Positions 5,893 to 29,716 of a stretch of 32,681 nucleotides of DNA are shown piece by piece. Position 1 is the first letter of the stretch, and each line of letters begins with the position of its first letter. The notes under the pieces are model-generated. The model worked only from the letters and a program-made list of their open reading frames with translations. It ran no database searches and had not been told where the DNA came from. Origin of the DNA: a virus; IMG/VR virus record IMGVR_UViG_3300031758_000316, positions 1-32,681 of that record; one strand, given 5' to 3'. The translations under genes and the position numbers were made by a program.

Positions 5893-6180
5893 TTATACGT
5901 AAGGATTGTTGTCAACCTTAACGATCATCTTTTCTTCAGAAACTTTACCTATTTTAATGTAGCCTTGAGATGAGAGAGAAGTTAGAAGAGTCCTGATTCT
6001 TTCTCTATCCTCTCCTAATTGAGAGGCTAGTTGGACATCAGTGAAAGAAGGATCTTTTCGGCTACCTACTTCTTTGATGATATGAAAAAGTAGATCATGC
6101 TCATCAGGATAGCCAGGCAAATCTTTGGCTATCCCGAGAACGTGTTTTATTTTGACTTTGTTCCAATTTATGTTACTCAT
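5893..6180 (-). CDS. Small winged-helix DNA-binding protein
   Basis: A 95-residue protein. Residues 45-75 read as a helix-turn-helix (FTDVQLASQLGEDRERIRTL), followed by a helix and the strand-turn-strand of a wing (IKIGKVSEEKMIVKV). This is the form of MarR/ArsR-type winged helices, here without a ligand domain. The start overlaps the end of uvsX by 8 nt, and the helicase gene follows after a gap of 38 nt. T4 has gene 40 in the corresponding uvsX-40-41 position, but this protein does not look like gp40. It may be a transcription regulator of the replication block or a recombination accessory factor; the sequence does not decide between them. Confidence 0.75.
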   Translation of the reverse strand: MSNINWNKVKIKHVLGIAKDLPGYPDEHDLLFHIIKEVGSRKDPSFTDVQLASQLGEDRERIRTLLTSLSSQGYIKIGKVSEEKMIVKVDNNPYV

Positions 6181-7393
6181 TTTCTTTTGTAAGTTCTTCA
6201 GCTATCTCGTCAGAATCTTCAAAAGTCTCAGGATCATCATCAAACTCTTCATCAACTCCGTAACTGAAGGTTGGTTTGATTATTTTTTCATCTAAGAGAT
6301 CTAAGACTTCTTTCGTGATAACCTCAGGTTTGAAAAGCATGTTCAAATCTACTGTATCGTTCAAGTGTTTGACGCAAAGCTTACGAGCAGTTTCAGAAGG
6401 CTGGAAGTAAACAGTGACCTCATCACCTTTTTCGTTCTTGTATGTGTGTTTACGACAAGGTTCTTTATCCTTTTCAGACATCTTCATGAAATCTTTTTCG
6501 TTGATCAGTCTGCCTCTCTGAATACCGCAATTGTCCCAGCTGATAAATTCCTGAAGACCGACGTAGGGGTTCATTCCTTTGTTGAAGTCTATCCAAAACT
6601 TGACAGGCGTTGGTTTTGCGAATCTGTTCTTGTTAGGCTTTGCAGTAACTATGATTCCTGTAGAATTACCGTCTGCTAATTTTGCTTTGTTCAAGAAAAG
6701 AATAATAGATGCTGCGTATTCAGGTCCCGTTCCTCCACCTGCAACTTGCTTGCTAAAAAGATCTTGAGTCTGATAGACGTGGTTAGTAAAGAGAAAAGGA
6801 ATCTTGCAAATACCCATTTGCGTCATCAAAATTCTGAAAGTAGATTTCAAGAGTCTTGCTCTTGTCATATCTGATTTATCTGAGCCGGATGCTGCATCAT
6901 CGATTTCTTTTTGAGTTGCGAGGTTACCTGCAGAATCCAGGATCACCATGATGCGAGGAAGCTCTGATCCTTTCTTCTTAGCTTCTAACATTGCTTTGGT
7001 CAAGTTAGTGACGCTAGATCTAAATTCCTGGACAGTGTTACAGGGTTCGTAACGAAGCTTAGCAGGATCGATACCGAATTTATCTGTAAGGCTTCTATCT
7101 ACAGCGTTCTCAGAATCGTAGTAGATGATAGAGTAGCCTAGTTTTTGAGCTTCTCTAACTGCATTTAAGATCAGATAAGTCTTTCCGGTGCCTGAAGGTC
7201 CTGCGATGGCTACTGATCTGTTATTGGGGAATCCGCCCCAAACTGAACCGGTAAGAGCTGCATTAAGAGCATAGTTACCGGTGCTGATATGATGATCAAC
7301 CGTACTTACTTCGCTCTTGTCTAAAGTATCTCCGAATGTAGATATTTTAGAAAGCTCTTTGTTCAGGTCTTCGAATGTGAAAGTCTTAGACAT
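6173..7393 (-). CDS. uvsX: UvsX recombinase (RecA family)
   Basis: A 406-residue RecA-fold protein. Walker A is GPSGTGKT at 65-72, and the Walker B strand is IMVILDSAGNL at about 148-158. The DNA-binding loop region follows (around FLFTNHVYQTQDLFSKQVAGGGTGPEYAAS). The C-terminus is strongly acidic, as in T4 UvsX (391 residues). It forms filaments on ssDNA and drives strand exchange for recombination-dependent replication; its mediator UvsY is at 23790-24233 and its ssDNA partner gp32 at 25503-26432. It has its own promoter-like element at 7410-7439, and the leader is A/T-rich without a Shine-Dalgarno sequence. Confidence 0.94.
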   Translation of the reverse strand: MSKTFTFEDLNKELSKISTFGDTLDKSEVSTVDHHISTGNYALNAALTGSVWGGFPNNRSVAIAGPSGTGKTYLILNAVREAQKLGYSIIYYDSENAVDRSLTDKFGIDPAKLRYEPCNTVQEFRSSVTNLTKAMLEAKKKGSELPRIMVILDSAGNLATQKEIDDAASGSDKSDMTRARLLKSTFRILMTQMGICKIPFLFTNHVYQTQDLFSKQVAGGGTGPEYAASIILFLNKAKLADGNSTGIIVTAKPNKNRFAKPTPVKFWIDFNKGMNPYVGLQEFISWDNCGIQRGRLINEKDFMKMSEKDKEPCRKHTYKNEKGDEVTVYFQPSETARKLCVKHLNDTVDLNMLFKPEVITKEVLDLLDEKIIKPTFSYGVDEEFDDDPETFEDSDEIAEELTKENE

Positions 7394-7440: not shown

Positions 7441-8589
7441 CTAAAAAACAGAAGCAGAATAAACAAGATTCCGATCTAATTTACCTAGACCCATTGCATC
7501 AATGACTCGATTGATAGGATCGACAATGCATCTTTCGAATTGCAGATCATGATCTACGCTAGGAGCAAATTCCACGGGAAAATCTCCTGGAGGAAAAGCA
7601 AAGACGTTACAAGTCTTGTCTTTACTGATGTAGTATTTGATCTTTTCACCGTCCGTCAAAGTCTTATAACGATTCTTGTATTTGCTGTTATTCAAGAGAT
7701 AGTTGTAGTAACCTGCAGCTCTGATATGGATGGGACACCCTGAAGCAATCTCAAAATGATCATAATCTGAAAGAACGTATTTTCGATAGTTGTTAATCCT
7801 AACGTTGAAAGTAATATGTTCAGTATTAGCCAACTTGAATTCTCTTTTCAATTTCTTAAGTAGATTGACAAGATCACTGAGCTCGACTTTTTCCACAGAA
7901 AATATGAATTTGAGAACTTCTTTCAGCTTATTTCTAGCAAAGAGAGGAGTACTTGATTGAATGATCTCAAACCCTTTAGCGCTGATTTTTGTAAGAGGCT
8001 CATAATGCAGATTAGGATCTTTCCAAACGATGTTCTGCATGTATTTTTTCTTGGCCAACCAGATGGCATTCTTAGCGATGGATTCCATCTCAAAATCAAG
8101 AAAATTATCTGCGTTGAGATCCTTTGCATATTTTTCAAGAACTTTAACATTGAAGCTGGAGAGACGGTATTCGTACAACTTAAGTACGAATTCTTTTTCA
8201 TCTCCTTTCCACGTACAGTTTTCTAAAACTTCCTGAAAGCTCAAATAACATGAATCAGTATCAATGTAAATGACCATAGGCTTTTTGATCTGACCCGTGA
8301 TTTCAATTCCCATTTTTTCATGCACCTCTTTGTCTTTGGTCCAGTACTCCTGAAAGTACTTATTGATCATCTTTTCAGTATAGAGGATCGCATCCTGACC
8401 TTGCAAAGTGATGGTTTCAGCAATATCAACATTGAAAAAATAGAACCACTCGTTACCGAATGCTCCGTAGATAGAGTTCAGCATGAGCTTTACGGCCTGT
8501 TCAAAGTTATAGTATTTCTGAGCTTCGAACTCTACCTGAGCCAATCTTTCTTGTAATTCTTCTAGCTTTTCTCTTTTACTCATTGTCAT
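7441..8589 (-). CDS. 43B: DNA polymerase gp43, C-terminal half (palm motifs B and C, thumb)
   Basis: A 382-residue protein carrying only the second part of a family B polymerase. Motif B is K34-LML-N38-S-I-Y41-G, and motif C is Y108-I-D110-T-D112-S, holding the catalytic aspartate pair. It lacks the exonuclease and motif A, which are in the separate gene at 13255-14667. The first 28 residues are a charged helix (KREKLEELQERLAQVEFEA) that would be one of the fingers helices, so the break is at the fingers tip. The two chains must associate to form an active enzyme. The start overlaps the clamp gene by 14 nt. A second ATG at 8581-8583 overlaps the clamp stop as ATGAGTAA and is an equally good start. 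The C-terminus ends in SASVF, a possible clamp-binding tail. Confidence 0.93.
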   Translation of the reverse strand: MTMSKREKLEELQERLAQVEFEAQKYYNFEQAVKLMLNSIYGAFGNEWFYFFNVDIAETITLQGQDAILYTEKMINKYFQEYWTKDKEVHEKMGIEITGQIKKPMVIYIDTDSCYLSFQEVLENCTWKGDEKEFVLKLYEYRLSSFNVKVLEKYAKDLNADNFLDFEMESIAKNAIWLAKKKYMQNIVWKDPNLHYEPLTKISAKGFEIIQSSTPLFARNKLKEVLKFIFSVEKVELSDLVNLLKKLKREFKLANTEHITFNVRINNYRKYVLSDYDHFEIASGCPIHIRAAGYYNYLLNNSKYKNRYKTLTDGEKIKYYISKDKTCNVFAFPPGDFPVEFAPSVDHDLQFERCIVDPINRVIDAMGLGKLDRNLVYSASVF

Positions 8590-9334
8590 CTACGATGGCG
8601 AGAGCTACGGTAAGAATTGTGTTAGTGTCTAGAGATTTAAAAATGGCTTTGTTCTCGCAAACAACCACTTTATAGTTCTCTTTGTCTAAGATCGGAATGT
8701 ATTTTTTATACATGCTGACTTCTGTCATCTCTTCATTGTGAATTTCGACCTGGTGAGTGAGGACTGCATCATATCTGTCACCGGATACATGTACTCCTTT
8801 TTCAGATACTTTGAATTTGAAGAGTTCTCTATCATCTTCGAGTTTGAAGAGAGACTTCATCTTATCCACATGGACTGTAAGAAGTTCAAAGCTGAAAACT
8901 TTACCGGTTGCTCCGAATGCTCTTTTGATTTCGTCATCGGTCATTTCCATGAAGTTCAAGCTTGGGTCTGCACAGTAAAGATTGATCTTCAGATTTTCAT
9001 CTTCTACAGTAAAGTCTGTAGCTACTAGATCATCTCCGATTTTCTGGTAAGATACTTTTGCTGAAATTTCTTCACCGAAGAAAGATAGAGCATCAATTAC
9101 TTTGTTGCCGTTGAAGAACGAGATCTTGATAGGAGCTGCTGGTGCTTCTTCAAGCTCGAACATTTCTGCGGTCTTTACTGTGGTGAACTTGACGGCGTCT
9201 TTCTGTGGAAGATAGACGGAAGAGGTTACTTGATCTGCAGCCAATTTCATGAAGATGAATTTATCGATCGATAAAAGCTTCTTCACAAAGGTCTGAAATT
9301 CGACCCCGTTAATTTTTTTGATTTTGAGTTCCAT
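8576..9334 (-). CDS. 45: Sliding clamp (gp45-like)
   Basis: A 252-residue protein without enzymatic motifs and with the alternating strand and short-helix pattern of a processivity clamp. The C-terminal segment (YKVVVCENKAIFKSLDTNTI) has the strand-turn-strand ending seen in T4 gp45 (228 residues). The position supports the call: it is directly upstream of, and translationally coupled to, the C-terminal half of DNA polymerase, its expected partner. In T4 the trimeric clamp holds gp43 on DNA and also activates late transcription through gp33 and gp55. The clamp-loader genes 44 and 62 are not in this window. The gene has its own promoter (9359-9388) behind a strong terminator. Confidence 0.78.
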   Translation of the reverse strand: MELKIKKINGVEFQTFVKKLLSIDKFIFMKLAADQVTSSVYLPQKDAVKFTTVKTAEMFELEEAPAAPIKISFFNGNKVIDALSFFGEEISAKVSYQKIGDDLVATDFTVEDENLKINLYCADPSLNFMEMTDDEIKRAFGATGKVFSFELLTVHVDKMKSLFKLEDDRELFKFKVSEKGVHVSGDRYDAVLTHQVEIHNEEMTEVSMYKKYIPILDKENYKVVVCENKAIFKSLDTNTILTVALAIVDDNE

Positions 9335-13254: not shown

Positions 13255-14667
13255 TCATAGCTCGTTTTTTATGTTCTTAATTTCTTCTCTTAATTTTTCA
13301 GCTTCGACTTGATACTTCTTAGATTCTCCTTTGTAGACCTTTCGATTTGTGTAGAGCTCTGTCAAGATGTTCTTGAGAATAGAATCATCCTTCTTATAGA
13401 TGGCACCTGTTACCGATACGATCTTATCAGGAGATTTTTCTTTCAGAGCTTCGACAGGATCGATCTTCTTGATGAAAGATTCAGGGCTGATATTGATCTG
13501 CCTCATGATCGATGGATATAGAGAAGCAAAGTCAAAGCAGGCAACTGCTCTGTGCATTCCTACGACAGGAGCTTTTACATAGGCTCCAGTATATTGTGTG
13601 TCTTTTCTTGAATCTTCAACGAAGTTTCTGGCCATTACTTTATTCTGAGCTAAGAATTTTCGGCAGAGCATCGATTCAGTAATTGCGACCGGTGAAGCTG
13701 CTTTGTAAATTCCAATCCTACACATAGTAGCAATAGTCAATGCAATATCCATCGTTCTCAATTTCTGATGGATGAGATATACGAGACAGGTATCTACCAC
13801 GTTGTAATAGACGTATTTTGTATATTCTTTTTCGTACAAATCTTGGATGGTACCGCTATACTTGATTTTTTTCAATCCAACTACTGCTTCGGCTGTAGAA
13901 TCGAGAGTAAAGTTTTCTTTGATAAAATCTGAACGATCCCATTTTCGATAGAGTTCCAAGTAGTCCATCATTCCTACGTGAAGAGGGAGATTTTCCTTTC
14001 CCCAGAGTTCTCCGACTGGGCTTGATATTGCTGGATCTATTGCTAGCTTGGAAGCTCGATTGACAAGATATTTCCAGTCAAAGTTAATGAAGTTCCAACC
14101 TGTGATCATTGGAAACTTTGAAACGAAAGATTTGAAGAATGTATAGAGAAGATCGTATTCTGAATCAAATTTCTTATAGACAAAACTAAATCTCGTATTT
14201 GTGTCTTTGAAATAGTCATCGACATCATTTTGAATCTTCTGTTGTTGATCTTGGGGAAGATCTCCAGTAGCCAAAACAATCGCTTGTGCGTTTGGTGTAA
14301 CTATTGCTATGGTAGTGACCGGTGTATCTGCTCTATCGGCTTCAGGGAAGCCGTCCTTGACTTCAACCTCGATATCTACAAAATAGGTCTTTGGTAAGTT
14401 GTAACCAAATATCTCTTCAGTTTCCTCAAAGGATAGCTCATCGATGAATTGGATGAGAGAGTATTTGTCTAGTGATTTTGAAGCCGTTCTTTTGACTGGT
14501 CGGCCGTCCCAGTTTCTGAATTTATCTGATTTGTTCTTGTCTCTTTCTTCACAGACTTCCCAGTTGGCGACTTGGCTTACTTTATACTGTTTGTAGTTAG
14601 TGTTGCCTTCTTTGTCGTAATATGAAATTGTAAGGTTCGTCCCTCTCTGTTGTACATCAAGCAGCAT
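13255..14667 (-). CDS. 43A: DNA polymerase gp43, N-terminal half (exonuclease and palm motif A)
   Basis: A 470-residue first part of a family B polymerase. The proofreading exonuclease is complete: Exo I D98-I-E100, Exo II N192 to D197 (NFINFD), Exo III Y288 to D292 (YNVVD). Motif A is D379-FASLYPSI. The chain continues into the fingers (NRKVYKGESK, 441-450) and stops after a charged helix (EAEKLREEIKNIKNEL). Motifs B and C are in a second gene 4.67 kb downstream (7441-8589). The break at the fingers tip resembles the 43A/43B split described for some Aeromonas T4-like phages. The gene starts after dUTPase with a weak promoter-like element at 14674-14703. Confidence 0.94.
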   Translation of the reverse strand: MLLDVQQRGTNLTISYYDKEGNTNYKQYKVSQVANWEVCEERDKNKSDKFRNWDGRPVKRTASKSLDKYSLIQFIDELSFEETEEIFGYNLPKTYFVDIEVEVKDGFPEADRADTPVTTIAIVTPNAQAIVLATGDLPQDQQQKIQNDVDDYFKDTNTRFSFVYKKFDSEYDLLYTFFKSFVSKFPMITGWNFINFDWKYLVNRASKLAIDPAISSPVGELWGKENLPLHVGMMDYLELYRKWDRSDFIKENFTLDSTAEAVVGLKKIKYSGTIQDLYEKEYTKYVYYNVVDTCLVYLIHQKLRTMDIALTIATMCRIGIYKAASPVAITESMLCRKFLAQNKVMARNFVEDSRKDTQYTGAYVKAPVVGMHRAVACFDFASLYPSIMRQINISPESFIKKIDPVEALKEKSPDKIVSVTGAIYKKDDSILKNILTELYTNRKVYKGESKKYQVEAEKLREEIKNIKNEL

Positions 14668-14704: not shown

Positions 14705-15172
14705 TCAGTAGCCTCTTTTTTGGCGATCGATGTTCTCTTTGTTCTTGCTCATATACATGTTGTACATTTCTTGGGGTGTCATTCCTACTGATACGGCCAT
14801 GTTCATGAAAAAATGCAAGATGTCTATAATCTCGAACTTACATTCTAATTGATCATTCTCTGAAAGATCTGAGAACTTAATGTCTGAATAAGTTGAGTAA
14901 GCCTTCTTCCACCTTTTCCAGATAGCGCTTCCGTTACCGTCTTTAATGCCACCGAGAGCGTCTGTAGCTTCGTGAATCTCATCAAGGAGAGCGTGGTTGT
15001 TCATGTGCCAGAATCCCATAAGATCTCTAAGAGTCATGTTCTCAAAATCCCACCCGTAAATCTCTTTCTGAGTGTACGCCTGAGTGTTGAGGATGTCTCC
15101 GAGTGTGTCCTTAGAGGAACTGTGCAAATTTTCGATCTCTAATTGAGAACAGCTGTTGTCAATGTTTGCCAT
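14705..15172 (-). CDS. Dimeric all-alpha dUTPase (MazG-superfamily dUTP pyrophosphatase)
   Basis: A 155-residue helical protein with the paired metal-binding motifs of the all-alpha NTP pyrophosphatases. These are E65-I-H-E68 and E114-I-I-D117, followed by the C-terminal KNKENIDRQKRGY block typical of dimeric dUTPases (dUTPase_2 family). A WKRWKK segment lies between them. It hydrolyses dUTP to dUMP and pyrophosphate, preventing uracil incorporation and feeding dTMP synthesis, which fits its place upstream of polymerase and ribonucleotide reductase. It is first in its transcription unit, with a clear promoter at 15192-15221 and a terminator immediately before that. A dCTPase/dUTPase role like T4 gp56 is an alternative. 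Confidence 0.82.
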   Translation of the reverse strand: MANIDNSCSQLEIENLHSSSKDTLGDILNTQAYTQKEIYGWDFENMTLRDLMGFWHMNNHALLDEIHEATDALGGIKDGNGSAIWKRWKKAYSTYSDIKFSDLSENDQLECKFEIIDILHFFMNMAVSVGMTPQEMYNMYMSKNKENIDRQKRGY

Positions 15173-15340: not shown

Positions 15341-16111
15341 TCAACGCCAACCCTCAAGAGACTTTCGAAAAGAGATGAATTCCTCAACTGCATCTATCAC
15401 GCTTTTCGATCTGCTAGATTTTGCTAGATCAAGTAATTGTTCATGATCGAGCATTTCGAATTTCGAGCGTGAGGTACGAGGCGATAATTTATCAAGAGAA
15501 AAGTGAGTTTGCCCGAAGGGGTCTTTATCTAAAGGATACGCAATTGCATTTTTCATAGCGAAGTTTAAAGCTTGTTTAGCGTCTTTCTCATTCAAAAACC
15601 TACCAGGCATTGCATATTCTCTGTAATCTGAATTAGGATAATTCTCGTAAAGCGCTAATCGAAGCGAAGGTGCCTTAGAATTTGTACCTGCGAATTTGAA
15701 GTCAGCTTCAACAGAAAAATGTTTTATGAATGGCGCAAGTATGTTTTCTGCTTCGGCTAAAATGTCTGCAGGAACTGGAGAAGGTGTGTTGGCGATTCTC
15801 TTTTGTAAGTCTCTATAGTAATTTTCATCAACTCTTGCGCTATCAAGCCCTTCTTGAATTGAATCTGCATTAATCGTAAGCTCTTCTACATTAAACGCAT
15901 CGTCAATCGGCCCCCTAGAATAAAGTCTACTATTTCCTGTATTATATTCAAACGTTAATTTCTTCAAGAGATCAATATATTTTTGGGCAGCATTTTTGTT
16001 ATCGAAGAGAAAATTGCCAGCCTCATATACTTTCATTGTTCCCTTATTCTCAATTATACGTTCAGAAGAGAGAGAAACGATGAAGTCTTCGTAAAGTTTT
16101 ACGTATTTCAT
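15341..16111 (-). CDS. Candidate internal head protein with capsid-targeting-like leader
   Basis: A 256-residue protein of unknown function. It begins MKYVKLYEDFIVSL, a member of the leader family found in eight proteins of this window (MKHVKLFEQF type). A V-Y-E30 before A31 is the nearest match to the T4 prohead protease site (I/L/V-x-E before A/G); IQE before G at 85-88 is another. The remainder is a mixed alpha/beta, near-neutral soluble domain without motifs I know. No signal peptide or membrane segment is seen. A perfect TATAAATA lies 23 nt upstream of the start, as expected for a T4-type late gene. Packaging into the capsid is inferred. Confidence 0.75.
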   Translation of the reverse strand: MKYVKLYEDFIVSLSSERIIENKGTMKVYEAGNFLFDNKNAAQKYIDLLKKLTFEYNTGNSRLYSRGPIDDAFNVEELTINADSIQEGLDSARVDENYYRDLQKRIANTPSPVPADILAEAENILAPFIKHFSVEADFKFAGTNSKAPSLRLALYENYPNSDYREYAMPGRFLNEKDAKQALNFAMKNAIAYPLDKDPFGQTHFSLDKLSPRTSRSKFEMLDHEQLLDLAKSSRSKSVIDAVEEFISFRKSLEGWR

Positions 16112-16133: not shown

Positions 16134-16141
16134 TATTTATA
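16134..16141 (-). promoter_or_regulatory. T4-type late promoter TATAAATA
   Basis: An exact TATAAATA on the minus strand, ending 22 nt before the ATG at 16111 and overlapping the end of the upstream gene. T4 late promoters have this octamer at -10 and no -35 box. Confidence 0.5.
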
Positions 16142-17018
16142 CGAGTTTCTTGAGATCTTTGTTAGCATCATCGATAGTCTTCGATTCTTTCTTGAAGACT
16201 CCGAGAAGCTTGTTGATCGCTCCCTTGATGGCATTCTTGATCTTGTCAAAGATTGAAGCTTCTGCTACAACCACTTTATCGATGGAGAAGCTGTGCTTTA
16301 CCTGAGTGACTTTTTTGCTTGCTTCGAGAGCCTCTTCAAGAACTCTACGAGTTGCCGCATTTACTTTACCGAGAGCGTTTTCAAAAGCAGTCTTGTAGGA
16401 TGCATCTTTTCTCTCTCCACCGAAGCGGGAGACCTTGATCACGAACCCTTCAGTCTCAGCCAACTTATCGCCGACTTCTTTCATTCCATCAAGCATCGGC
16501 TTGACTTCTCCTTCGAACTGCTTGAATGCGAGCTTCTTTTCTTCAAGCTCGGCTTCCATTCTCTTAATCTCATTCTGGAGATCGTAGAATTCAGCGATGC
16601 TTGCTTTAACTCCTGGATCATCGATGAAAGCTTCAAAGACGAATTCTTCAAACATCTTTACTATTTTCATATCTTTCTTTGTTTTTAATCTTTTGCGAGA
16701 AGCCGGTACGTCTCCGGATCCTGTTCTTTGAGTAGGAAATGACGTGAGATCTCCTGGATCTCCTGAAAAAGAGACAGCTCCCATTCCATTGACATTAGAT
16801 GGAGTAGCCATCGACTCGTCCTTCTTCTTTACTTTGTTAGGCAAGCCTTTGTGTTTTGTGGCTGCAAAATCTTTCAGCTGCTTCTGGGTCATTCCCTGAG
16901 AGAGATCTTCTATCTCGTCTCTGTACTGGGGATTGATATCAGATGGATCAAGATCACCCTTTTTAAGAGCATAAGCTTGAGCCATGAGCCGTTGTTGTGC
17001 TATTGAACGTGCTGGCAT
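16137..17018 (-). CDS. DUF3008-like domain fused to capsid-targeting-leader protein
   Basis: A 293-residue ORF of two unlike parts. Residues 1-65 (MPARSIAQQRLMAQAYALKK and the TKHKGLP motif) match the small DUF3008 phage/bacterial family, normally a separate protein of about 60-70 residues. Residues 70-116 look like linker. M117 then starts MKIVKMFEEFVFEAF, a capsid-targeting-type leader with V-F-E129 before A130. The last 160 residues are helical and coiled-coil-like, ending with a basic segment (AIKGAINKLLGVFKKE). The internal ATG (16668-16670) is preceded by an A-rich stretch like true gene starts here. One fused protein, or a nested second start giving a 177-residue internal protein, are both possible. 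Confidence 0.75.
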   Translation of the reverse strand: MPARSIAQQRLMAQAYALKKGDLDPSDINPQYRDEIEDLSQGMTQKQLKDFAATKHKGLPNKVKKKDESMATPSNVNGMGAVSFSGDPGDLTSFPTQRTGSGDVPASRKRLKTKKDMKIVKMFEEFVFEAFIDDPGVKASIAEFYDLQNEIKRMEAELEEKKLAFKQFEGEVKPMLDGMKEVGDKLAETEGFVIKVSRFGGERKDASYKTAFENALGKVNAATRRVLEEALEASKKVTQVKHSFSIDKVVVAEASIFDKIKNAIKGAINKLLGVFKKESKTIDDANKDLKKLV

Positions 17019-17030
17019 CTTTGCTTTTTG

Positions 17031-18170
17031 TTATCTTTTAACTTGAATTTCATCATCTAAAATGATGCTGTAATCTTCGACAAAAGCTTCAATGTCTTCT
17101 TTAGATCCTACGATAGAAAAACCTGATGAAGTTCTATCTTCAACATCTAAATTATAGTCTTTTTTAATTTCTTTATCAGATCCTCCCGGTTTTCTTCTAT
17201 CGTCTATGTATGCAATATATTTTTCATCGTTCTTTTCACGAAGAGGACCAGAACCGCCTGCGCCTAGTGCAAGTTCAGTGTTCTTCTTTAACCATGCTAG
17301 AGCTTTGCCAGCTGAATACTTGAGCATCTTCTTGAAAGTAGTGGCCACGTCTTCAATGTTCCCACCTGGCTTAGCCTGGTAGCCGTAGACTTTACCGTTG
17401 ATGCTCACATAGAAAAAGTCTTTAGTGAGATCGAGTGGATCGACGATGAGGTTTTCTTCTAAGCCGAATTCTTCGTAAATTTCAAGAACTTCGGATTCGT
17501 TGAGGGCGCTCATGATCACATGGCCGCTCTTAGTCAAAGAATAGTATTTTATACCGTCCTCTTCTTCAACTTTGAAAAAGTGAGAGTTACGGCTGATCCA
17601 CTTCGTAGGAGCTCCAGCCTTAGAGACTGCATCCATGAAATCCTGTTCTGCGACTCTGCCGTTTCTTAAGATTTCGAGAACCTTATTACGAACTGGAGCG
17701 TTAGCATAAACGTGGTTGAGGGCGATGCGGCCTTCGTGGAGATTTTCATTTTCTCCGTCTTGAGCCATGTGGGCAGCTTCATCGTATAGAGAAGTTGGTA
17801 GATCATATCCAGCTTTCTTGGCAGCCGCATGAGCTTTATTATAATCGTTCGGTAATGCGCCGCCGAAAAAATCTAACACCGAGAAGGCGTCTGGAAATTT
17901 CTTGGCTTCATTGATGAACTGTTCGAAGAGTTTTAAGTGCTTCATTATGCTATGTGTTTTTAGATTCATTGGTGAATTGCTCTCGCCTACGAAGAAGTCT
18001 GCTTCTTTACCGTTGAGAGTCTTCCCGTCTTCCCAGGTGAGACCGATCATGTGGCCGTTAGCTGCTTTGATCATGTAATCGCCTTTCGCCTTGACTACTT
18101 GGTAACCTTTGTTGCTCCAGTAGACCTTTTTGCCAGCGTCTACAGCTGCTTTTATTTCCTGAGCGTTCAT
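17031..18170 (-). CDS. Small phage domain fused to capsid-targeting-leader protein
   Basis: A 379-residue ORF. Residues 1-63 (MNAQEIKAAVDAGKKVYW, IGLTWEDGKTLNGKEADFF) resemble a small stand-alone phage protein seen in many genomes, of unknown function. M76 then starts MKHLKLFEQFINEAKKF, a textbook member of the leader family with I-N-E88 before A89, the T4 gp21-type site. The rest is soluble and partly helical with no motif I know. The internal ATG (17943-17945) follows an A-rich stretch (ATCTAAAAACACATAGCATA). The ORF overlaps the upstream ligase-like gene by 4 nt (ATGA). As with its neighbour at 16137-17018, either a true fusion or internal initiation is possible. Confidence 0.78.
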   Translation of the reverse strand: MNAQEIKAAVDAGKKVYWSNKGYQVVKAKGDYMIKAANGHMIGLTWEDGKTLNGKEADFFVGESNSPMNLKTHSIMKHLKLFEQFINEAKKFPDAFSVLDFFGGALPNDYNKAHAAAKKAGYDLPTSLYDEAAHMAQDGENENLHEGRIALNHVYANAPVRNKVLEILRNGRVAEQDFMDAVSKAGAPTKWISRNSHFFKVEEEDGIKYYSLTKSGHVIMSALNESEVLEIYEEFGLEENLIVDPLDLTKDFFYVSINGKVYGYQAKPGGNIEDVATTFKKMLKYSAGKALAWLKKNTELALGAGGSGPLREKNDEKYIAYIDDRRKPGGSDKEIKKDYNLDVEDRTSSGFSIVGSKEDIEAFVEDYSIILDDEIQVKR

Positions 18171-19456
18171 TTAAGCTCTATTTTTATTTCTTCTGATATG
18201 AGAGACTTATCGACTTCTTCGATGAAAATGCCTTCCATGACACGCTTATCGTTCAGATAGTCTCCGAAAGTCTTAAACCCTGAAGCTTCTTTTTGATGAG
18301 TGATCTCCTTGATCTTATTTATCAACTTGTTAAGGTCTTGGATGACCAGCGGTGTGAGAACATCGTTAGATCTCTCGGGGTCTCTCTTCTTCCTAAGACA
18401 GTTGAGGAAGATCTGGAAAATCTTTTCGTTGTTACCAGATTTTTCGATGATCTCTCGAGTCTTTTCGTTTGGAATCATCTCTACGTTCAGAGAATGTTCA
18501 GCATTCTTGGCAAAATCCCGAGTCTCGAAATTCAAACCTTGTAGGTCTGATTCTCTCTTCTCCATGTAATCGTTGTAGATGGAGCAGACGAGAGTGAGAT
18601 ACTTTTCGTCTGGAAATTCTCCTAGAGCCATTTCAGACTTGATGCCGTGAGTCTCTAAAAACTCTAACAAGTCTAAGAGGAGTATCGATACTGAATCGGT
18701 GGATCTACGTTTGCTCGCCTCTTTTTTGTAGAGAGACTTCATGTAGGGGTCGACTATCTTGGCAGTGACTATTGATTCTCCACCAGGCTTTACGAACTTG
18801 AAGATGAGAGAATCGAAGACTGTCTCATCATCACCGGCCAGAAGAGGACGATATGTGTAATAGCCTTTGGGATCTAATATGCTGAAGAGATATCTGAAAA
18901 AAGAATCGGTACCGATTATTTCCTCCAGCTCGTCTTTAGGAACCGCTAGAAATTCAAGGATCTTTTTCTTTCTTTCATCGTCTAATTTTCCAGCGAAGAG
19001 CGGAGGATTCTCAGAGACTCCTAAGCGATGAGCCCAGTCAGAGAGTACTCGTGGATCTTCCACTGTCTTTAGAGTTCTCGTATTTTGAGGATTCTTGATC
19101 ATGATCCTGCTGAGGATCAAACCTGATGGAGGAACTTTGCCATAGATGGAAGTCTCACCAGGAAAATAGTCGAAGCCGAAGAGCCAGTCTTCAGGCATTT
19201 TGAGCTTCACGTCCATCGGAAGATCTTCGAAGTGTTTGATGCCTTTCTCGTAAAAGAGGGCAAGAGTACGATCGATGAGATTGATCTTTTCTTCACCTTT
19301 CTTAAAATAACACAGAGAAGAACCTTCTCTCATGACATAGAAGTCTGAGGCGTTGATCTTCTCAGAGACTATCACATAAGAATCGAAGAGGTCCTGTAGA
19401 AAAGTCTGGCCTCTTTCTCGGTAAAGCTTGTCGAGCTCTGGTATGTTCCCTATCAT
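18167..19456 (-). CDS. Nucleotidyltransferase/RNA-ligase-like protein
   Basis: A 429-residue protein. The segment V-S-E-K33-I-N-A-S-D-F resembles motif I of Rnl2-type RNA ligases (EKIHGTNF in T4 Rnl2), where the Lys is the AMP-accepting residue. Here the G is A and the N is D. Possible motif III (WLFGFDYFP) and motifs IV-V (GGESIVTAKIVDPYMKSLY) follow in the right order. The C-terminal 180 residues are helical and unlike the Rnl2 C-domain. If active it would seal or cap RNA or DNA ends. The changes in motif I and the unusual C-terminus mean a non-ligase nucleotidyltransferase or an inactive relative is also possible. It is coupled to the glycosylase upstream (5-nt gap) and the fused leader protein downstream. 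Confidence 0.45.
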   Translation of the reverse strand: MIGNIPELDKLYRERGQTFLQDLFDSYVIVSEKINASDFYVMREGSSLCYFKKGEEKINLIDRTLALFYEKGIKHFEDLPMDVKLKMPEDWLFGFDYFPGETSIYGKVPPSGLILSRIMIKNPQNTRTLKTVEDPRVLSDWAHRLGVSENPPLFAGKLDDERKKKILEFLAVPKDELEEIIGTDSFFRYLFSILDPKGYYTYRPLLAGDDETVFDSLIFKFVKPGGESIVTAKIVDPYMKSLYKKEASKRRSTDSVSILLLDLLEFLETHGIKSEMALGEFPDEKYLTLVCSIYNDYMEKRESDLQGLNFETRDFAKNAEHSLNVEMIPNEKTREIIEKSGNNEKIFQIFLNCLRKKRDPERSNDVLTPLVIQDLNKLINKIKEITHQKEASGFKTFGDYLNDKRVMEGIFIEEVDKSLISEEIKIELK

Positions 19457-19461
19457 ATCTT

Positions 19462-19842
19462 TTATTTATTCAAGCTCCTCAGATAGCCGATGAGTTCTTT
19501 GTCAGTAGGCTGGATCTCGTAATTGTTCTTCTGAAAGATCTCCCAAGAGTCTTGAGCGTATTGGCCGATGCCGTGGAGCTCTATGGGTTCTTTCCAATCT
19601 TTCTCTGTCCATTCTCGACTGAATTTAATAAGAGTACGAGCTCTCCTGTTATAGAGCCCTAGAGGTTTTATTACTCTAGCGATCTCTTCTGGATCGGCTG
19701 AAGCCATTTCTATGGGATCAGGCCAGAAAGAAAAGAGATCTTCTCTTACGCTGTCGACCTGGGTTCTCGTCGTCTGGTTCAAAAGGATACATCCTACTAG
19801 CATTTTCCACGGATCGTGCAGATATATCTCCTGAAGCATCAT
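19462..19842 (-). CDS. MBD4-like HhH-GPD DNA glycosylase
   Basis: A 126-residue protein from the ATG at 19840-19842 (a TTG two codons earlier is the longest frame). It closely follows the catalytic domain of vertebrate MBD4: DPWKMLVGCILLNQT (10-24), KPLGLYNRRARTLIKFS (59-75), and PIELHGIGQYAQDSWEIF (86-103). The last block contains the helix-hairpin-helix and the catalytic aspartate D98. MBD4-type enzymes remove T or U, and deaminated or oxidised 5-methyl/hydroxymethylcytosine products, opposite G. In a phage this suggests repair of deamination or handling of modified bases; that is inference. It is shorter than Nth/MutY enzymes and has no Fe-S cluster cysteines. It lies directly downstream of the 2-oxoglutarate dioxygenase gene, transcribed in the same direction. 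Confidence 0.82.
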   Translation of the reverse strand: MMLQEIYLHDPWKMLVGCILLNQTTRTQVDSVREDLFSFWPDPIEMASADPEEIARVIKPLGLYNRRARTLIKFSREWTEKDWKEPIELHGIGQYAQDSWEIFQKNNYEIQPTDKELIGYLRSLNK

Positions 19843-19881
19843 AGACAAATCTAGTAAAAAAGATCCACTTTAGAAACTGTT

Positions 19882-20592
19882 TTAGCTGAACCAGCCAGTG
19901 AATGAAAGCCTTTTAGCGTAAGAAGGTGCATTCACATGAGAGACGAAGTGATCAGTGCCCGCAGATGTTGAGAGATCGAAAAGTATCAGAGAATTGTATC
20001 GAGGAGAGATGACTTTTTCTACACCGTTAGGATCTCCCTGCTTTAGAAAATGAAGCATTCCTCCCCATTCCGGACGCCAGCCTCGAGAAATGTTATAGAC
20101 AAAGCCCATCTGGCCGTTAGGACCATCGCTGTGAGTCGAAAGGAAGTCTCCGATGCTATACCAAGAAGCGAAAAGCTCGTTGCTGCTGGAGACTGGAATG
20201 TCAGTGATCTGAGTAATGAATTGGTGGACTTCCGAAGTAGCTAAGTAGCTCCTAAGCTCACACTCTACACAGTTACAGCCTTCAACGTGATCGTTGAGAG
20301 TTCTTCGAAAAATGTAAGAGAATTGAGAATTTGCAAAAGCCTTACGAGCTGCAGATTCTTTCTCAGCAATGAGATCAGCGTTGTCTTCGGAATAGTAGCA
20401 GTTATGCATTTTATTCTCTCCGTCAGGAGAGGGTCGAGTGCTCACTGACCACCACCATTGGGGCATTCCCTCGTTGAAGTGGTTGAAGATTCTATCAGCT
20501 TGTTCAGGTACGAGAAAATTATCGATGATGACAGAACCGTCTCTTAGAAATTCGTATTTGAGTTTTCTCTTGTTAAGATCCTTGTTTAGCAT
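19882..20592 (-). CDS. 2-oxoglutarate/Fe(II)-dependent dioxygenase (prolyl-hydroxylase-like)
   Basis: A 236-residue protein with the double-stranded beta-helix signature. H154-S-D156 and H219 are the iron ligands, and R228 is the 2-oxoglutarate-binding residue (KRLSFTGWF). The spacing and the GGMLHFL segment fit the prolyl-4-hydroxylase-like group often found in T4-like marine phages. An unusual cysteine cluster, C106-N-C108-V-E-C111, lies before the core and may bind a metal. Substrate is unknown: protein prolines, or a nucleic-acid base given the adjacent glycosylase. The start lies 3 nt after a T run of the upstream terminator, while a promoter sits within that hairpin (20623-20653). Expression from the promoter alone would lack the hairpin. 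Confidence 0.85.
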   Translation of the reverse strand: MLNKDLNKRKLKYEFLRDGSVIIDNFLVPEQADRIFNHFNEGMPQWWWSVSTRPSPDGENKMHNCYYSEDNADLIAEKESAARKAFANSQFSYIFRRTLNDHVEGCNCVECELRSYLATSEVHQFITQITDIPVSSSNELFASWYSIGDFLSTHSDGPNGQMGFVYNISRGWRPEWGGMLHFLKQGDPNGVEKVISPRYNSLILFDLSTSAGTDHFVSHVNAPSYAKRLSFTGWFS

Positions 20593-20655: not shown

Positions 20656-21318
20656 CTATCGATCGAGAGTATTACTTGAATTGAGAAAATTCATTAGAAT
20701 AAAATCTCTATCAAGAATAGGCGGAACAACAGCAGTTTTTAAAAATCCTGGATCAATTCGACCCTCAATCATGCCTGCCCAACTCGATGCTGTGCGCCAT
20801 CTCTGTTCATTTCTCTTTCTCGGCGCAAGATAATAGTAGGTAGGTTTGATCCACGCCATGAAAAGTTTCACAGGATCTTTTTGATCAAAATCCATGAATG
20901 CTTCAGAATATGATGGAAAAAACTCTCCTTTAGGATCTACCTCAAATTCTACTGTAAATTTTGCATCATCCGGAAATTTTACTGCTTTGAGAACTTTTTC
21001 AAATTCTTGGTAAGCTTTTTTAGAATCAGCATTAAAGGCTTTTACTGCATTTTCAAGATCTTTTTCGATCTTTTTCTTGTCGATTGAAAGGGTCGGATCA
21101 ACTATCAAAGCTTTTCGAAGAGAAGTTATGTTACGGAACTTTTCGATGATCTCTAATCTCCGATTCCTAAGACTTGTTAAATCTATGCGAAAATTAGGCA
21201 CTTCTACACCCGCTGCCTCCAAATCATAAGAGCCAAAACGATCTCCGGTAGGATTTACTTTCATAGCCTCATTAATTCTAAGGTCTATGAACTGTTCGAA
21301 TAATTTTACGTGCTTCAC
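20656..21318 (-). CDS. Candidate internal head protein with capsid-targeting-like leader
   Basis: A 220-residue protein of unknown function. It begins MKHVKLFEQFIDLRINEAMK: the leader consensus, then I-N-E17 before A18, matching the T4 gp21 protease site. The predicted mature protein (about 203 residues) is basic, with a helical first half (residues 45-110) and a beta-containing second half with several aromatics (FFPSYSEAF, PTYYYLAPRKR). There is no signal peptide or membrane segment. It follows the acidic leader protein by 20 nt in a two-gene unit that starts at the late-type element 22253-22265 and ends at the terminator 20595-20625. Packaging is inferred from the leader only. Confidence 0.78.
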   Translation of the reverse strand: MKHVKLFEQFIDLRINEAMKVNPTGDRFGSYDLEAAGVEVPNFRIDLTSLRNRRLEIIEKFRNITSLRKALIVDPTLSIDKKKIEKDLENAVKAFNADSKKAYQEFEKVLKAVKFPDDAKFTVEFEVDPKGEFFPSYSEAFMDFDQKDPVKLFMAWIKPTYYYLAPRKRNEQRWRTASSWAGMIEGRIDPGFLKTAVVPPILDRDFILMNFLNSSNTLDR

Positions 21319-27353: not shown

Positions 27354-28481
27354 TTAAGATTCTTGTGCAATCATTGCGTGTGTAATGTTAACTGAGATCC
27401 ATCCTGCTTTATTGAAGAATTCTTTTGCGATCTTTTTGACCTTTTCAGCTTCTCCCATTGATATTGGATCTTCTCCTCTATCGTTCCAGTCTTTTACGGC
27501 TTCTTTGAAAGTGGCCTCAAAATCTTTTGACTTGATAGCAAATTCAGGATCGCTCTGTCCAGAAGTATCTGTGTTATAATCTGTCCAGTATTTGACGTCG
27601 ATAGCTTCGTTCTGCTGGAACGGGTGTTTTTCTATTTTTTGGAGATCTGCAACCACTCCGCTGTTGTCTTTGAGGATTTTGGCTATGATGTCAGCAATCT
27701 CCTCGTAGGTATCTCCGCCAATAGCGTCAGATTTTTTGTATGCTGGGTTTGTCGGCTTTCCTATTTCCAGAGTTACGCCTACAGATTTCTGAACAATGTG
27801 TAGTCCGATGTATGGATTAAGATCGGCCGAGAGCATGACATCATGCTCAGGGTTGAACTGAAGTCCGATTTTGTTCTTCATCAGAGATGAATTGAGGGCT
27901 GGAAGCAGCATCTTCATGTCAAAGCCTCTGAACGTATCCTTTTTTTGCCAAAATTTGCGAAGATTGAATTTTTGCGATAATTCAGCCAAGTTTGCTAAAG
28001 TTGAAAAAGGTGTTTTCTTGATAAAGTCGTAAGCTTCATTCATAGAAGCTGAAGCGAGAAGTGAAGCAATTGCTTCTACGAGATCTTCAGTTTTTTTCTT
28101 TACCGGGATGACTTCCATGTCAACAAGCTTGTTCAGGACTTTGTGAGCAAGAATTCTTCCGCCTTTGATAGAAACTACGCCTTCGTTGAGTTCAGCTTCG
28201 TTAAATGCATAATAGCCAATACCCGACGGAGAAATTATTTTTCCATCTTTGAATGCTTTTTCAACTTTATTTTTTAGCTCTTGCGCTTCTTTCTGTGATC
28301 CGGTTGTTAAATAACTCATAACAAGCTCATCTCCGATAAAATAACCGATCTCTAAATTATAGGTAAGATGATTCTTATTATTGATTTTAATATCCTTTAA
28401 CTTCAATGGCTCTGGAGCTCCACTGGATGCTTCATTAGATTTCGATGAAGTAAAGTCTTCGAATAATTGAATGTGTTTCAT
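27354..28481 (-). CDS. Candidate internal head protein with capsid-targeting-like leader
   Basis: A 375-residue protein of unknown function. It begins MKHIQLFEDFTSSKSNEASS. The first possible cut (S-N-E17 before A18) has a poor P3 residue, but L98-N-E100 before G101 is a full T4-type match and is followed by VVSIKGGRILAHKVLNKLVD. That segment resembles the mature start of the 70-residue protein at 29158-29370. The C-terminal half (about 185-375) is a mixed alpha/beta domain without recognised motifs. It follows the lipoprotein by 1 nt and ends 21 nt before the RuvC-like gene. Packaging is inferred from the leader; the real function is unknown. Confidence 0.75.
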   Translation of the reverse strand: MKHIQLFEDFTSSKSNEASSGAPEPLKLKDIKINNKNHLTYNLEIGYFIGDELVMSYLTTGSQKEAQELKNKVEKAFKDGKIISPSGIGYYAFNEAELNEGVVSIKGGRILAHKVLNKLVDMEVIPVKKKTEDLVEAIASLLASASMNEAYDFIKKTPFSTLANLAELSQKFNLRKFWQKKDTFRGFDMKMLLPALNSSLMKNKIGLQFNPEHDVMLSADLNPYIGLHIVQKSVGVTLEIGKPTNPAYKKSDAIGGDTYEEIADIIAKILKDNSGVVADLQKIEKHPFQQNEAIDVKYWTDYNTDTSGQSDPEFAIKSKDFEATFKEAVKDWNDRGEDPISMGEAEKVKKIAKEFFNKAGWISVNITHAMIAQES

Positions 28482-29157: not shown

Positions 29158-29370
29158 TTAGAATGTGCTGTCCATGATGATTTTCTGCACATCATCAATT
29201 AAGATATTTCTGACAAAAGGATTCAGATACTTCTTTTTGACGAGATCATCTACGATGACCATAGCGAGTACTTTTGCGCCAGACGGTTTGTCGCGACCTG
29301 CAATTTGAACAGAAGCTTCATCTAATTTAGGCTCATTAGAGAAGTCCTCGAGTGTTAAAATGTTTTTCAT
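29158..29370 (-). CDS. Small capsid-targeting-leader protein
   Basis: A 70-residue protein. The leader MKNILTLEDFSNEPKLDEAS has L16-D-E18 before A19, an exact fit to the (L/I)-x-E/A rule of T4 gp21. The predicted mature part is 52 residues: SVQIAGRDKPSGAKVLAMVI then two helices (VDDLVKKKY, RNILIDDVQKIIMDS). That mature start looks like the segment after the LNE site in the 375-residue neighbour (VVSIKGGRILAHKVLNKLVD), suggesting a shared small domain. It sits 4 nt after the 113-residue leader protein and 9 nt before the lipoprotein. T4 internal proteins IPI-IPIII are similarly small after cleavage. Confidence 0.7.
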   Translation of the reverse strand: MKNILTLEDFSNEPKLDEASVQIAGRDKPSGAKVLAMVIVDDLVKKKYLNPFVRNILIDDVQKIIMDSTF

Positions 29371-29374
29371 AAAA

Positions 29375-29716
29375 TTAAATTCTTTTTCCTAAGTGAAATC
29401 CAATGGCTGCTCCGACTAATCGGCTGGTAAAGAGATCGAATAAAAGACCCTTTTCAACTCCTAATGCGTTCGCCACAATTTTGCCGACTCCCTGCCCTAG
29501 AGCAAATCCAGTTAGTCCACCGAGAATAGAACCGATGAAACCCTCGTTAGTGAGCTCTCGTTCTAATTGTTCTAAAGTATAACCTTCATCTTGGGCCTTC
29601 TTAATGAAAGCAGCTACTGCCTCGTCTATCGCGTTCTGATCGACAGATTCGTTCATCACAGCTTCCAAATCTTGAAAGTCTTCTTTTTCTCCAATGAATT
29701 CTTTGAATGTCTGCAT
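29375..29716 (-). CDS. Small targeting-leader protein with glycine-zipper hydrophobic domain
   Basis: A 113-residue protein. It begins MQTFKEFIGEKED, the closest of all to the T4 internal-protein leader (MKTYQEFIAEA type). I30-D-E32 before A33 is a good protease site. The C-terminal part is glycine-rich and hydrophobic: GFIGSILGGLTGFALGQGVG followed by KIVANALG and a second hydrophobic segment (LVGAAIGFHLGKR). Glycine zippers of this type insert in membranes or form pores. A packaged protein that acts on the host inner membrane during DNA entry is a possible role, inferred only. It is preceded by a late-type element (29721-29729) directly after the stop of the tail-tube-like gene. Confidence 0.72.
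   Translation of the reverse strand: MQTFKEFIGEKEDFQDLEAVMNESVDQNAIDEAVAAFIKKAQDEGYTLEQLERELTNEGFIGSILGGLTGFALGQGVGKIVANALGVEKGLLFDLFTSRLVGAAIGFHLGKRI

Follow-up and report, generated by a model that had tools for sequence, protein, structure and literature searches.

A predicted stand-alone MBD4-type DNA glycosylase encoded by a virus and its relatives in phages

The gene described here, carried by a bacterial virus, encodes a protein of 126 amino acids that, judged by its sequence, its modelled fold and its place in a phylogenetic tree, is a stand-alone MBD4-type glycosylase domain. MBD4 excises deaminated bases in animals, and it is studied for the protection that it gives to methylated CpG sites in eukaryotes. 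From the gene, the fold, the family and the catalytic residues, the viral glycosylase is very likely active, and we consider it probable that this minimal enzyme starts base-excision repair where cytosine in phage DNA has been deaminated. Within the limits of the searches made, phages commonly carry a member of its family and cells rarely do.

The gene

The window, that is, the whole stretch of DNA analysed, is a virus record of 32,681 bases. An IMG/VR contig of 68,860 bases, obtained from a different sample, contains a stretch that matches the window over its full length at 99.98-100% identity. The gene under study is located as follows.

19462-19842, minus strand: MBD4-type HhH-GPD DNA glycosylase gene, 126 amino acids plus stop

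It sits within a run of same-strand genes, in an open reading frame that spans 19462-19848 on the minus strand. The start is the ATG at 19842, the first of two adjacent ATGs, directly before a conserved LQE motif. This choice had been made in a previous reading of the sequence alone, and it agrees with the start conserved in the relatives L003-L005. The gene is real, and purifying selection on it is strong (dN 0.15-0.18, dS saturated; w = 0.075 in the single computable pair).

Assignment to the MBD4 type

A phmmer search of the PDB returned MBD4 glycosylase domains as its best 15 matches, with E-values of 1.5e-28 to 1.5e-26. The next matches, endonuclease III (1.9e-4) and Mig.Mth (9.8e-4), leave a gap of more than 20 orders of magnitude between MBD4 and Nth. 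The sequence-only reading had proposed an MBD4-type enzyme, an assignment that a closer match to Nth-like proteins would contradict; the closer match is instead to MBD4 (1.5e-28 against 1.9e-4), and the two motifs quoted in that reading, KPLGLYNRRARTLIKFS and ELHGIGQYAQDS, are present in the protein. Pfam places the 126-residue protein in HhH-GPD (1.5e-10), PADLOC yields just a weak match (3.7e-5) to an HhH entry with the label nicking endonuclease, and PHROGs contains no family for it.

The same separation is obtained with a search profile built from 17 phage relatives. Its hits in all collections fall into two sets with none between them. At 126 bits or more there are 103 rows, all without Fe-S cysteines: 96 from phage loci, 6 from MAG loci and one that is a copy of the window. 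The set at 58 bits or less comprises 68 rows, of which 67 carry the Fe-S motif and the remaining one is truncated where its contig ends. A 100/95 branch in a 96-protein tree divides the phage sequences and mouse MBD4 from 13 Fe-S Nth proteins; branching inside the phage side is poorly resolved, including the attachment point of mouse MBD4. An AlphaFold model of the glycosylase, built with 61 sequences, reached a pLDDT of 96.3 and a pTM of 0.90. Compared with the PDB, its top 16 matches are all MBD4 (TM 0.93-0.95, rmsd 0.9-1.1 A), and the first fold other than MBD4 is 1kea, at TM 0.70. Sequence, fold and tree, together with the missing Fe-S cluster and Nth lysine, thus uphold the MBD4 type over the Nth type.

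The closest known counterpart is the glycosylase domain of mammalian MBD4 (MED1; 4e9e, 3iho, 1ngn, 4ofa), to which the viral protein shows about 41-43% identity over 119-124 residues. Equivalents of Asp560, Gln449, Leu466, Leu508 and Tyr540 are kept, and neither protein has an Fe-S cluster. The viral protein nevertheless has neither the methyl-CpG-binding domain nor the linker, and Gln replaces both the arginine finger R468 and Lys539. As it lacks the methyl-CpG-binding domain as well as the arginine finger, it does not belong under the name MBD4 in the strict sense. Plant MBD4 homologues are also without the MBD (PMC9266487). Mig.Mth T/G mismatch glycosylase (1kea) and endonuclease III share the HhH-GPD fold at TM about 0.70, but they are Fe-S cluster enzymes of 211-226 amino acids with a weak sequence match (E 2e-4 to 1e-3). 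The sole strong match in the viral structure library is the HhH-GPD protein of Clostera anastomosis granulovirus A (BFVD U5KBB0; TM 0.93, 32% identity), which differs in being an insect baculovirus protein of 245 amino acids; its gene is probably derived from the insect.

The active site

Human numbering was transferred through an alignment with mouse MBD4, in which the Asp of PEDHKL was set as D560, and conservation was counted over 82 phage and MAG sequences. The positions concerned are the following.

19501-19503, minus strand: D114 codon, equivalent of the catalytic Asp560 of human MBD4, invariant (82/82)
19549-19551, minus strand: D98 codon, aligned with human D543, in the hairpin motif
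19558-19560, minus strand: Y95 codon, equivalent of human Y540 (base recognition), invariant (82/82)
19774-19776, minus strand: Q23 codon, aligned with the arginine finger R468 of human MBD4
19831-19833, minus strand: Q4 codon, equivalent of human Q449, a residue in contact with the flipped base

In human MBD4, D560 provides general-base catalysis, and base recognition involves L447, V448, Q449 and Y540 (PMC12073362). D98 had previously been taken for the catalytic residue. The alignment corrects this: D98, whose position is conserved in 81 of the 82 sequences, corresponds to human D543, and the equivalent of D560 is D114, in the motif IQPTDKEL. L21 and L63 are the equivalents of L466 and L508. 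The Q449 position is Q in 38 sequences and V in the other 44, the latter forming a second subfamily with the motif MVQQQ.

Endonuclease III hallmarks, namely the C-terminal Fe-S cluster cysteines and the catalytic Lys, were looked for in the protein and are absent. Y95 occupies the position of this lysine, which the monofunctional enzymes of the superfamily have lost (PMC8307549), so that a strand nick is not expected. The arginine finger R468 of MBD4 recognises the orphan guanine and is tied to T:G recognition (PMC12073362). Its position is Q, C, L or M in all 82 relatives and Arg in none, and the mismatch specificity may, from these sequences, differ from that of MBD4. With R468 replaced by Q, T:G specificity is uncertain for the protein of the window.

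The enzyme would flip a pyrimidine out of the helix, and the pocket formed by L3, Q4 and Y95 would hold its Watson-Crick edge. D114 would then activate a water molecule for the cutting of the glycosidic bond, leaving an abasic site. With Tyr in place of the endonuclease III lysine, the enzyme would be monofunctional and would not cut the strand itself.

Distribution in phages and cells

In the annotated phage collection, full-length relatives were found in Xanthomonas, Stenotrophomonas and Janthinobacterium phages of the Bradleyvirinae type and in cyanophage S-TIM54. The relatives from isolated phages are labelled hypothetical, ENDO3c or endonuclease III, never MBD4-type. The HhH-GPD proteins of the Bosavirus/Bradleyvirinae phages (DoCa6, AXL_1, YB23, Donnerlittchen) and of S-TIM54 belong to the same family and have invariant catalytic residues, but they are only 34-40% identical to the protein of the window and lie in other gene neighbourhoods. 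In total, 96 phage loci were verified as MBD4-type. A scan of IMG/VR gave at least 586 contigs, and the best 80 of these, which were fetched, were all MBD4-type (80/80).

In cellular genomes (84,980 species, one genome each), MBD4-type genes were detected at six loci in five MAGs. The genome-contig scan used short motifs, which the GKYGND spelling of mammalian MBD4 would escape. Full-profile searches of four whole-genome samples were added for this reason (200, 199, 386 and 390 genomes, from four phyla), and they retrieved nothing beyond the three seed genomes. Several of the six loci appear to be viral. Indeed, the contigs of L034 and L035 (with L036, which has the same protein in the same MAG) carry T4-type ligase, tail fibre and baseplate genes; these contigs, assigned by binning to Neomarinimicrobiota and Rickettsiales MAGs, probably come from phages, and L033 is probably on a phage contig as well. 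At L032, the MBD4-type gene (5989-6375) lies amid ordinary Actinomarina genes (CbiM, MgtE, peptidase S9). This is apparently a true cellular copy, rare and related to the cyanophage versions; L032-L035 cluster with S-TIM54 in the tree. An enzyme of this type had been thought unusual for a phage, a view that does not agree with 96 phage loci and at least 586 IMG/VR contigs against six cellular loci. A literature search combining MBD4 and phage, in which subscription journals were thinly covered and absence is hence not proven, yielded no description of a phage MBD4-type enzyme. The phage family is apparently widespread but unnamed.

Genomic context and the probable repair of deaminated cytosine

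The probable role of this stand-alone glycosylase is to begin base-excision repair where deamination of cytosine has left U:G, or possibly T:G, while the phage genome replicates. Without the arginine finger, a preference for U:G, or a wider one for U and T, is likelier than strict T:G repair. The enzyme would stand in for uracil-DNA glycosylase: the UDG family was found in none of the 51 phage records searched, a weak absence, as many of these records are fragments. Another gene of the window is relevant here.

14705-15172, minus strand: probable all-alpha dUTPase (dUTPase_2, at the gathering cut-off)

This dUTPase would block the dUTP route by which U is incorporated into DNA, so that any leftover U would come mainly from deamination. 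On separate branches of the tree, a gene for an Fpg/MutM-type glycosylase directly adjoins the MBD4-type gene (L116:5147-5983, L135:6401-7204 and L146:7111-7911). This adjacency points to base-excision repair, and the pair is a possible phage base-excision-repair cassette. Against the repair reading, no AP endonuclease partner was identified.

It is unlikely, but deserves consideration, that the enzyme excises a modified or foreign pyrimidine instead, as a weapon against the DNA of the host or of a competing phage or as quality control of a modified base. Bacterial glycosylases acting on phage modified bases are known from the Brig family, according to the summary in PMC13160076. In Bradleyvirinae phages, the MBD4-type gene lies just upstream of genes for a nucleotide pyrophosphohydrolase, a thymidylate-synthase-fold protein and a dCMP deaminase. 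In the large L118-L173 clade, FolE, phosphoribosyltransferase, HIT and radical SAM genes are found near it (for example L128:307-1050 and 2187-2771), and QueD is nearby or in the same record; together they hint at 7-deazaguanine chemistry in that clade. These genes are, however, not found in the window or its 68.9-kb contig, the pocket residues match those of MBD4 and the neighbourhoods of the gene differ among phage groups. Thymidylate-synthase-fold genes match in 12 of 50 records, 10 of them over the cut-off, and QueD occurs in 12 of 51, in neither case in the group of the window. Methyltransferase, UDG, thymidylate-synthase-fold and QueD partners were each tested, and none explains the whole family.

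In phages, certain proteins of the HhH-GPD superfamily presumably serve thymine hypermodification and not repair. The protein could in the same way have the glycosylase fold but bind DNA or modify nucleotides, no longer acting on DNA bases, yet this is very improbable with the catalytic Asp and the pocket Tyr invariant across 82 divergent proteins.

A third alternative is suggested by the upstream neighbour of the gene.

19882-20592, minus strand: 2OG-Fe(II) oxygenase, matching 2OG-FeII_Oxy_4/_3, not Tet_JBP or AlkB

The oxygenase gene ends 39 bases upstream of the glycosylase start codon, in the same direction, and the two genes are also adjacent in the closest relatives, L001-L005. The two enzymes might therefore oxidise and remove 5-methylcytosine in a TET/MBD4-like demethylation. 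We regard this as hardly credible, given the family of the oxygenase and its absence from beside the MBD4-type gene in L109 and in every other group. Moreover, a cytosine-5 methyltransferase (PF00145) was found in just 1 of 50 related records, and the dinucleotide test gave a CpG ratio of 0.85, slightly low, with TpG not raised at 0.97, which leaves no trace of methyl-CpG decay. No modification gene was recognised in the window or its 68.9-kb contig. The link to base modification or to mutational pressure from 5-methylcytosine, raised earlier for this gene, accordingly finds nothing to support it here, although a base-modification role is not excluded in other phage groups.

Finally, the annotation in some phage records would make the protein a bifunctional Nth-type glycosylase acting on oxidised pyrimidines, a reading that is scarcely conceivable and already largely refuted: the weak NCBIfam nth match (2e-12, 47 bits, far under the 212-bit cut-off) and the 'endonuclease III' label of the Donnerlittchen record are outweighed by the lack of Fe-S cysteines and Nth lysine, a length of about half and the placement with MBD4 by tree and fold.

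Other features of the window

Directly downstream of the glycosylase gene, a gene at 18167-19456 (minus strand) encodes a 429-amino-acid protein with no Pfam or PHROG match. It is kept beside the glycosylase gene in L001-L005 and L109, more weakly in L112-L114, and its product is a possible functional partner of the glycosylase.

The Family-B DNA polymerase is split in two genes, at 13255-14667 and 7441-8589 (both minus strand). About 4.7 kb separates the halves, and ribonucleotide reductase genes and a gene of 252 amino acids (8576-9334) lie in between. The nearest polymerases are those of uncultured phage records of 462-735 kb and of Prevotella Lak phages; the window could therefore be a fragment of a very large phage genome. 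A motif like MKHIKLFEQFINEA occurs at the start of or inside many function-unassigned proteins and resembles the capsid-targeting sequences of T4; these may be internal head proteins.

20656-21318, minus strand: protein with MKHIKLFEQFINEA-like motif
27354-28481, minus strand: same motif
17031-18170, minus strand: same motif
16137-17018, minus strand: same motif
15341-16111, minus strand: same motif
29158-29370, minus strand: same motif
29375-29716, minus strand: same motif

Implications

The existence of a large stand-alone phage family, near-absent from cellular prokaryotes, suggests that the catalytic core of MBD4 is able to carry out simple repair of deamination where CpG is not methylated. 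It also raises the question of the origin of eukaryotic MBD4. One answer, speculative and rather unlikely, is that the MBD4-type glycosylase of the prokaryotic world is a phage-borne family and that eukaryotic MBD4 descends from such a phage gene, the methyl-CpG-binding domain being added later in animals. Labels such as 'hypothetical' or 'endonuclease III' in phage annotations deserve correction in the light of this family, and its members, as minimal natural variants without the arginine finger, are useful for understanding how T:G versus U:G specificity arises.
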